Shown in pieces: positions 7,697 to 60,036 of a stretch of DNA of 64,000 bases. How positions within the stretch are numbered: position 1 is the first letter of the stretch; each line of letters begins with the position of its first letter. The position numbers and the translations under genes were made by a program. Under the pieces are notes generated by a model, which saw only the letters and a list, made by a program, of their open reading frames with translations, ran no database searches and was not told where the DNA came from. The stretch is from Weissella diestrammenae (GTDB lineage: Bacteria > Bacillota > Bacilli > Lactobacillales > Lactobacillaceae): NCBI RefSeq assembly GCF_014397255.1, contig NZ_CP060724.1, positions 496,001 to 560,000 of the forward strand. Direction: 5' to 3'.

Positions 7697-7927
7697 TATT
7701 ACGTCATTTTCATGTATTTCATGTCATCAATCCCAGGCGTTTGTGACACAACGAAGCGTATTGTTGAATTTTTGTCACGCCGCACCAAATTGAAATTACT
7801 CGTCTAATCCTAACTAATTAATTTGTCACATTTTTTGCTTCATTCACGTTACTATTTAATGTCACAGTCAATGTGGCATTAATTCCCGGTGGCCACCAAC
7901 ATCATTTATCTCAAAGGAGTATGTATT

Positions 7928-8131
7928 ATGTCTGAAGTTAAAAAGGTAATGAAAGTTCGTTTTACTGGTGCAATTTCGAATCAGCCAAAGAACATTAACC
8001 GTATTTTTTATGCAGTACCAGTAACTGATTCGAATCAATTCCGTCAGTTTGGCCAGTTACTAACGCGAATTGGTCAAGAATCAAGTATTGCTCGAATCAC
8101 GCTCTTAACCCACGAAACGCTAACCAACTAA
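7928..8131 (+). CDS. Small DUF1659-like protein
   Basis: A 67-residue protein beginning MSEVKKVMKVRF, preceded by a good AAAGGAG with 8-nt spacing. Pattern of a short beta-strand-rich protein (KVMKVRFTG ... IARITLLTHE). The next gene encodes a DUF2922 protein; in many Firmicutes a DUF1659 protein sits beside a DUF2922 protein, and size and strand pattern fit, but the sequence similarity I can see by eye is weak. Function unknown. A longer frame starting 39 nt upstream has no ribosome site. Confidence 0.6.
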   Translation: MSEVKKVMKVRFTGAISNQPKNINRIFYAVPVTDSNQFRQFGQLLTRIGQESSIARITLLTHETLTN

Positions 8132-8178
8132 TCTCATATACCCAAATGACCACTATCAAGCATTTAAAGGAGTAACCC

Positions 8179-8439
8179 ATGGAACAAACACCGTATAAAT
8201 TAGAATTAATCTTTACTAAAGCGACAGGTAATCAATTTACTATCATGTTTAATCACGTCAAACCAGATTTAACTGCCGAAATCGTCTTAAACACCATGAA
8301 CGAACTCGTTGCATGCGAATGGCTCACTGATGGTCTGGGTGAATCACGCTTTCCAAAAGGTGTCAAACCAAAAGCCGCAATTTACACAAGACAAGAACGC
8401 CGAACCGTCTGGTCAGCCGCACCCAACCAGAATAATTAA
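8179..8439 (+). CDS. DUF2922 family protein
   Basis: An 86-residue protein with the DUF2922 pattern: LELIFTKATG at the N-terminus, DLTAEIVLNTMNELV in the middle and a late strand PKAAIYTRQERRTVW. It starts with ATG 10 nt after AAAGGAG and lies 47 nt behind the DUF1659-like gene, so the two are probably co-transcribed; a terminator follows 20 nt after the stop. The family has no known function. Confidence 0.7.
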   Translation: MEQTPYKLELIFTKATGNQFTIMFNHVKPDLTAEIVLNTMNELVACEWLTDGLGESRFPKGVKPKAAIYTRQERRTVWSAAPNQNN

Positions 8440-8458
8440 TCTATTTCAAATTTAAATC

Positions 8459-8494
8459 ACGCCCAATCTTTGCAGTTTAAGATTGGGTGTTTTA
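8459..8494 (+). terminator. Terminator after the DUF2922 gene
   Basis: A 12-bp stem (8459-8470 with 8479-8490, one G-U pair), loop of 8, followed by TTTTA. It separates the two small genes from the sigma-like gene, implying attenuation or a second promoter for the latter. Confidence 0.75.
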
Positions 8495-8558
8495 CCATTC
8501 ATTTATGCTAACACAAATCAACTTACCTTAACTTTAACCTCGAGAGGAACCACTATCG

Positions 8559-9056
8559 ATGACAAATAATCGTATGCTCGAATTTGAACAACTTATTTAT
8601 GGCGTTTTACGCTTTACCCACATTTGGTCGAGCGCCCCACACCGAGAGGACTTAATCCAAATCTGTTATGAACGTATTTGGTGTCAATTACTTCTCAACC
8701 CCGACTTGTCCGCCAACAACAATCGTTATCTTTTTCAGATTTTATGCAATGCCATCCATGACTACAATCGTAAACTAAAAGTGCGCAGTGAAAACGAAAA
8801 CAATCAACCAATCCTTGAAAATCAATTCACCGACGATCCTAGTATGCTATGTCATCTACATCTGACATTACTCGATATTAAGCAAACAACTAGCCATCCC
8901 ATATTACAAGCCTTAATTGACGACTTAATTGCTTTCCCTGATGCACGCATCAACGAACGTTCGCGACGTTTAAATCGTTCCCGGCAAACAATTCACCGTC
9001 AACGCCTTCTTTTGCAACAGCTTATCTCTATAGCAGAACGTGATAGCGAGCATTAA
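8559..9056 (+). CDS. Sigma-70-like (ComX/SigH-type) alternative sigma factor candidate
   Basis: A 165-residue protein resembling the short competence-type sigma factors of lactic acid bacteria. An N-terminal region 2-like helix pair is suggested by EDLIQICYERIW and RYLFQILCNAIHDYNRKL, and a C-terminal region 4-like helix-turn-helix by RLNRSRQTIHRQRLLLQQL. SD GAGAGGA lies about 10 nt upstream of the ATG. Region 2 is degenerate by eye, so it could also be a sigma-like regulator. It is the third gene of the plus-strand cluster and the only transcription factor near the DUF pair. No terminator is obvious before the convergent gene at 9100. Confidence 0.6.
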   Translation: MTNNRMLEFEQLIYGVLRFTHIWSSAPHREDLIQICYERIWCQLLLNPDLSANNNRYLFQILCNAIHDYNRKLKVRSENENNQPILENQFTDDPSMLCHLHLTLLDIKQTTSHPILQALIDDLIAFPDARINERSRRLNRSRQTIHRQRLLLQQLISIAERDSEH

Positions 9057-59847: not shown

Positions 59848-60036
59848 GAATGACTCCTTCCTTCGTCCATATTGGAATATGAGACTAACTCCGTGAGAAA
59901 ACCAACACACCACTGTGGAATCCATGGCAGTGGTTCCCGTGGCAATGCTGCCGGGTGTGTCGCAACCTCTCACATCATCGCTCGTTGCCGTACTTCCTTA
60001 CTTCAGCGCATAATTCGCCCGTCAGTAAATAACGTA
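59848..60036 (-). promoter_or_regulatory. Structured leader of the S10 operon
   Basis: The ~190-nt leader folds into a long hairpin at 59973-59893: GTGAGA with TCTCAC and GACACACC with GGTGTGTT, enclosing GGCAGCATTGCC- and CCACTG/CAGTGG-type inner stems. Position and size fit an L4-responsive S10 leader; I could not match it to a known consensus. Confidence 0.5.

Follow-up and report, generated by a model that had tools for sequence, protein, structure and literature searches.

A small, probably ECF-type sigma factor gene with a DUF1659-like/DUF2922 gene pair in Weissella, a possible SigS–SroAB-type switch of lactic acid bacteria

Introduction

In Staphylococcus aureus, sroAB is a direct target of the sigma factor SigS, with SroA raising the accumulation of sigS mRNA and SroB having the opposite effect, as stated in a preprint (PMC13192611). 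The 2008 SigS paper reports one small linked gene downstream of sigS. Another sigma factor, SigH of L. sakei, is encoded at the nusG locus and activates com genes (PMC3364868). Within the literature text that was searched, DUF2922 was not found and DUF1659 occurred a single time.

Here we analyze a locus of the lactic acid bacterium Weissella diestrammenae in which two very small genes precede the gene of a short sigma-like factor. The original prediction described it as a DUF1659-like/DUF2922 pair coupled to a ComX/SigH-like sigma factor, together making a small undescribed regulatory module. We propose instead, with a probability of roughly 0.6, that the three genes constitute a switch of the SigS–SroAB type, in which an SroAB-like pair feeds back on a SigS-like sigma factor.

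Results

The locus lies in the window, by which we mean the whole stretch of 64,000 nt that was analyzed (contig NZ_CP060724.1, positions 496,001 to 560,000); the host genome is a single contig of 1.66 Mb. Three plus-strand genes form an island between two minus-strand genes, one for a response regulator, which we take to be walR, and one for EpsG (Table 1). The minus strand carries 55 of the 61 non-overlapping open reading frames of at least 100 aa in the window, and both architectural claims of the original prediction, a plus-strand island in a mostly minus-strand region and a terminator separating the pair from the sigma gene, agree with what we find. The hairpin at 8459-8490 has a 12-bp stem and a folding energy of -17.7 kcal/mol (z -6.1), a stability matched by none of 200 shuffles. 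It has a short U run (GUUUUACC) and is absent from the list produced by a simple terminator scan. Elsewhere in the window, at 59860-59986 on the minus strand, an S10 ribosomal protein leader was recognized (Rfam RF03136; 35.6 bits against a gathering score of 35.1).

Table 1 Features of the sigma factor locus, in window coordinates
Feature	Position	Strand	Remark
-35-like block TTTGTCACATTT	7822..7833	+	two-block motif, best site in window
-10-like block ACGTTACTA	7846..7854	+	12 nt past the -35-like block
Leader hairpin, 11-bp stem, 5-nt loop	7856..7882	+	directly past the -10-like block
10-bp perfect palindrome GGTGGCCACC in leader	7888..7897	+	read from the sequence
Gene of the 67-aa DUF1659-like (SroA-like) protein	7928..8131	+	ATG at 7928
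Gene of the 86-aa DUF2922 (SroB-like) protein	8179..8439	+	ATG at 8179
Terminator-like hairpin between pair and sigma gene	8459..8490	+	short U run; by folding
Gene of the 165-aa ECF-type (SigS-like) sigma factor	8559..9056	+	ATG at 8559

The 86-aa protein belongs to DUF2922 (PF11148), passing the Pfam gathering score with 36.5 bits (cut-off 25.5), and members of this family were found in 160 of the 201 Lactobacillaceae genomes and 149 of the 250 Bacilli genomes sampled. The 67-aa protein gave no match in scans of Pfam and NCBIfam, the DUF1659 (PF07872) and SroA (NF049869) models included. Among four of its Weissella relatives that were scanned, one (L029) reached 16.4 bits with PF07872, under the cut-off of 24.1, and the other three gave no match to that model. 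Profile-profile comparison of the 67-aa protein with a DUF1659/SroA set gave 87%. Because the protein matches no model of its own and the likeness comes from this profile-profile value, we name it DUF1659-like only.

Both small proteins are predicted to fold as strand-strand-helix-strand (pLDDT 86.9 for the 67-aa and 89.1 for the 86-aa protein), and their profiles are alike (76.6%, P 2e-5); they may be ancient paralogues. The common predicted fold also fits a pair, and on these models the two proteins may associate with each other. Sequence searches retrieved no convincing relative of known structure (best E 0.26 and 0.06), Foldseek of the predicted folds gave no clear solved relative (best E 0.11 and 0.40), and the VIA structural matches were in the noise range, the best being phage p56 (Z 4.6) and phage Dmd (Z 5.4).

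Proteins of this build might instead serve as a chaperone or anti-sigma pair whose target is the sigma protein and not its mRNA. Anti-sigma genes often adjoin ECF sigma genes, both proteins are predicted to be small strand-strand-helix-strand domains, and the weak matches of Z about 4 to 5 include the protein inhibitors p56 and Dmd. However, these structural matches are not significant, and the effect reported for S. aureus is on sigS mRNA (PMC13192611). We regard action on the sigma protein as possible but rather doubtful.

The connection of the pair to SroA and SroB comes from a group of genomes that we labeled Staphylococcus-type on the basis of an SroA model match and gene content. In one of them, a DUF1659 gene passes the SroA model NF049869 with 114.9 bits (cut-off 80), its product being the sole protein scanned to do so, and the next gene encodes a DUF2922 protein (64 bits); a DUF1659 protein from Bacilli matched the SroA model weakly. 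Because the DUF1659 gene passes the SroA model and DUF2922 comes directly after it, we infer from these sequence matches that DUF1659–DUF2922 corresponds to SroA–SroB, with SroB assigned by gene position. In addition, the sigma genes of four Staphylococcus-type loci, which we infer from size and neighbours to be sigS, adjoin ComK-family genes scoring 54.8, 26.6, 22.1 and 19.6 bits (Pfam cut-off 22.3).

We next consider the sigma-like protein itself. It matched TIGR02937, the model of the ECF sigma superfamily, with 23.6 bits (E 3.2e-5), under the cut-off of 42.9, and Pfam sigma region 2 with 13.8 bits (cut-off 24), and the Pfam scan gave no match to sigma region 4. Profile-profile comparison yielded 98.7% against small sigma factors pooled from Staphylococcus-type genomes, other Lactobacillales and Bacillales, 90.5% against the Weissella factors encoded at the sigH locus, and 73% against the four Staphylococcus-type factors alone. 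The sigma-like assignment of the original prediction is thus upheld by profile comparison but not by the Pfam regions, which fall below cut-off or find no match.

Relatives of the 165-aa protein were detected in 24 of the 28 Weissella genomes (E<=0.1), and a profile search found them in 135 of the 201 Lactobacillaceae genomes. In the tree, the 13 Weissella factors of the window type cluster together (99/97) and share a side with the Lactobacillaceae factors. The sigH-locus factors make up a separate cluster (99/94), and it is with them and the Bacillales factors that the Staphylococcus-type ones are placed (93/89). Support is lacking at the deepest forks (45/23). We considered orthology to SigS or to SigH, and neither the profiles (73% and 90.5%) nor the tree, with its deep forks at 45/23, settles it. 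Because profiles and tree do not decide descent, our term SigS-like refers to arrangement and partners and not to proven descent.

Gene neighbourhoods were compared in 124 Lactobacillaceae genomes for which coordinates of both genes were available among the matches listed, five Weissella DUF2922 entries having been added from a separate search, and all counts are lower bounds. The coupling of DUF2922 to a sigma factor gene, which the original prediction proposed to follow across Lactobacillales, does recur: the two genes lie within 1.5 kb of each other in at least 49 of the 124 genomes (14 genera), within 5 kb in at least 57 (15 of the 28 genera) and within 30 kb in at least 74 (22 genera), in every case on the same strand. 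Among the matches listed, they were split over different contigs in 33 of the 124 genomes and stood far apart in several genera (g37 and some Weissella). Some of the distant matches may be sigH genes, the sigH-type neighbourhood having been checked for the best 30 sigma loci. As a control, sigma and comGA (74 comGA entries) lay within 30 kb of each other in none of the 15 genomes with both on one contig, and the same held for DUF2922 and comGA (0 of 15).

The two genes also tend to occur together, DUF2922 being present in 129 of the 135 sigma-bearing genomes versus 31 of the 66 others (kinship ignored). No sigma match was found in 31 of the 160 DUF2922 genomes, where sensitivity was perhaps lacking. 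As to gene order, 47 of the 57 close pairs among the matches listed start with the sigma gene; the reverse order is seen in the window and in g15 and g35. The original prediction had suggested co-regulation by read-through of the terminator; since the sigma gene precedes the pair in most of these close pairs, read-through is not a general rule. Beyond the family, a sigma-like gene stands directly upstream of the pair in four of five loci of other Lactobacillales (two of the four profile-checked), and a sigma-70 gene does so in at least 4 of 29 loci of Bacilli.

Could this neighbourhood be a product of shared ancestry only, with no present link between the genes? Gene order is common to related genomes, and our counts ignore kinship. 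Yet the two genes are found within 5 kb in 15 genera and always on one strand among the matches listed, and their presence is correlated as well. Moreover, even within Weissella the adjacency of pair and sigma gene occurs in both orders and in three or more gene contexts (neighbour names assigned by eye), and at 24 Weissella sigma loci the sigma gene adjoins a ComK-like gene in 12 cases, the pair in 8 and neither in 4. We therefore consider ancestry without a present link very unlikely.

Two further arrangements were noted. In three loci of other Lactobacillales (L311, L312 and L315), a sigma-like gene and the pair are followed by a gene that by eye is GH25-lysozyme-like. At L331 1924-3223 (genome G129), a further ECF sigma gene is followed by a 272-aa gene that is anti-sigma-like by eye; sigma matches like that of L331 occur in G122, G124, G125 and G126, and four of the five such genomes have two DUF2922 matches.

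We then turned to the upstream regions of the DUF1659-like genes, which share a -35-like block close to TGTNACANTTTT and a -10-like CGTTA(N)TA, 10-13 nt apart and usually 50-85 nt upstream of the start codon, the CGTTA-like core being present in most of 63 regions. Weights for the two-block motif were trained on 45 non-Weissella regions, in three of which no DUF1659 ORF was found. The seeds had been picked by eye from both sets, and 'held-out' accordingly refers to the weights and not to the idea. A 20-nt version including the leader start transferred less well to Weissella and was replaced by the two-block version. Over both strands of the 64-kb window, the best match is the site at 7822 with a score of 20.9, the next distinct site scoring 14.6. 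Of the 18 held-out Weissella regions, 14 had the motif at p<=0.05 (a repeat gave 15) and 8 at p<=0.01. By eye, the same promoter is visible in four regions of other Lactobacillales, and a related one upstream of the Bacillales and Staphylococcus-type genes. Judged by these motif matches, the pair has a dedicated promoter.

Upstream of the sigma genes, the motif stands at chance level (p<=0.05 in 1 of 24 and 1 of 22 regions, none at p<=0.01), so no autoregulation of the sigma factor is seen. ComK-like genes likewise gave p<=0.05 in 0 of 8 upstream regions and none at p<=0.01.

The leader of the window (7856-7912) folds with a z of -3.55, and none of 200 shuffles was as stable. Over 59 loci, which were left of the 63 upstream regions after removal of three whose promoter region was not found or not usable and of one that was too short, the mean z was -0.5, with 21 loci below -1 and 7 below -2. 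At this mean, a conserved RNA hairpin in the leader is a weak candidate. The palindromes give a clearer signal: one of at least 8 bp past the -10-like block is present in 42 of the 59 loci, with p<=0.05 in 24; the 8-bp core of the window palindrome taken alone is not above chance (p 0.17). These palindromes lie near the expected transcript start and have genus-specific letters (GTTGGCCAAC, CACCGGTG, TGTACGCGTACA and others); besides the window at 7888-7897, examples after the -10-like block of DUF1659 promoters are found in L011, L014, L039, L242 and L266.

The ComX/SigH label attached by the original prediction calls for separate treatment. The 165-aa protein might be a ComX/SigH-type competence factor with the pair in its regulon: it is a small, ECF-like sigma of SigH size in Lactobacillaceae, its profile gave the 90.5% noted above against the sigH-locus factors, the SigH-like factor of L. 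sakei activates com genes (PMC3364868), and a ComK-like gene adjoins the sigma gene in 12 of the 24 Weissella loci. The profile for ComK-like genes was built from six Weissella sigma-adjacent genes. In a Pfam ComK scan of four Weissella genes (cut-off 22.3), L004 scored 25.7 and L007 22.1, L020 scored 14.7, and L025 gave no match. Of 22 loci outside Weissella, nine have a ComK-like gene next to sigma according to low-scoring profile matches; for these nine genes, Pfam gave a below-cut-off ComK match in three cases and none in six. In three loci (L119, L128 and L137), the ComK-like gene lies on one side of the sigma gene, divergent from it, and the DUF1659-like and DUF2922 pair on the other; among the three, L137 alone matched Pfam ComK (20.7 bits).

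Against the competence reading, the sigH locus of the window's genome, between rlmB and nusG, is occupied by a second sigma gene, which encodes 177 aa (L320 1938-2471, minus strand; G000 C1 621137-621670), and similar genes occupy this place in other Weissella (L321, L322 and L328). The TIGR02937 match of the second factor carries a stop mark, though its 177-aa ORF is complete, and it is probably the SigH/ComX of this genome. The 165-aa sigma gene, on the other hand, is not at rlmB–nusG but beside EpsG and the pair, and NusG, RlmB and MrnC were within reach of none of the best 30 sigma loci. Late-competence promoters also differ by eye: in the comGA and comE regions of Weissella (L051-L108), a T tract is followed by CGTCTTTATTA, and those of other Lactobacillaceae (L269-L296) are of CGTAATTA type, elements that are possible ComX boxes. 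Upstream of comGA, the motif of the pair is at chance level: 2 of 26 regions from Weissella and 0 of 28 others reached p<=0.05, and none reached p<=0.01. A partial likeness is nevertheless visible in the two Weissella matches and in the -35-like GACATTTT that some comGA regions carry. We rejected the ComX/SigH label on the strength of the second sigma at the sigH locus and the different com promoters, and a competence role for the 165-aa factor and the pair appears unlikely.

Discussion

The SigS–SroAB-type reading that we favor would work as follows. RNA polymerase carrying the 165-aa ECF-type sigma would transcribe the pair from the promoter at 7822-7854. The SroA-like and SroB-like proteins, built on one shared small fold, probably act as a pair and, by analogy with S. 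aureus, would in turn influence how much sigma mRNA is present. In the window, read-through of the 8459-8490 hairpin may supply some of the sigma mRNA, because the sigma gene lies downstream, the terminator has a short U run and no copy of the pair's promoter is seen at the sigma gene; a positive loop would then result.

A wider conjecture goes beyond this reading. Throughout the Bacilli, the two small proteins, of one ancestral fold, might form a heterodimer that binds nucleic acid, possibly the palindromic leader, and so sets the level of its partner sigma factor. We put this forward tentatively and think it unlikely; if it is true, small ECF sigma factors would in general be controlled post-transcriptionally, with SroAB as one example.

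The claim that the module is undescribed survives in part. Within the literature text that was searched, we found no match for a spread through lactic acid bacteria, for the compact locus, for the promoter with its palindrome or for the ComK-like link; its pair, on the other hand, corresponds to SroA–SroB of the SigS system, and the kind of system is already known from Staphylococcus. A trio resembling this stress-control system of Staphylococcus thus looks more widely spread than was known. Taken together, the pair, the sigma factor, the dedicated promoter and the link to SigS–SroAB give DUF1659 and DUF2922 proteins a testable role. The action of SroA and SroB becomes open to study in harmless food bacteria, where sigma factor and pair sometimes share one short locus, and the sigma factor of the window is set apart from the competence sigma, for which it might otherwise be mistaken.

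How does the locus compare with the systems described so far? With SigH/ComX it has in common a small ECF-like sigma factor of Lactobacillaceae and a high profile similarity to the sigH-locus factors of Weissella, but it stands elsewhere than rlmB–nusG, where a second sigma factor is encoded, and the promoter motif of its pair is at chance level at comGA. The DUF1659–DUF2922–YvrJ trio of Bacillales shares both small genes and their order; many of its loci have a YvrJ-like third gene (by eye; one confirmed as PF12841), whereas no YvrJ-like ORF was noticed on reading the window or the Lactobacillaceae loci. As for SigS–SroAB, the pair of the window adjoins its sigma gene, whereas no sigma gene was seen near the Staphylococcus-type sroAB loci L316 and L317, and the window has a promoter followed by a palindrome, which was not seen by eye upstream of the L316 and L317 pairs. 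Common to both are a small sigma factor, probably of ECF type in the window, a DUF1659-like gene followed by a DUF2922 gene, present together with the sigma gene in the window, and a ComK-family gene beside sigma in the Staphylococcus-type loci and in many Weissella.
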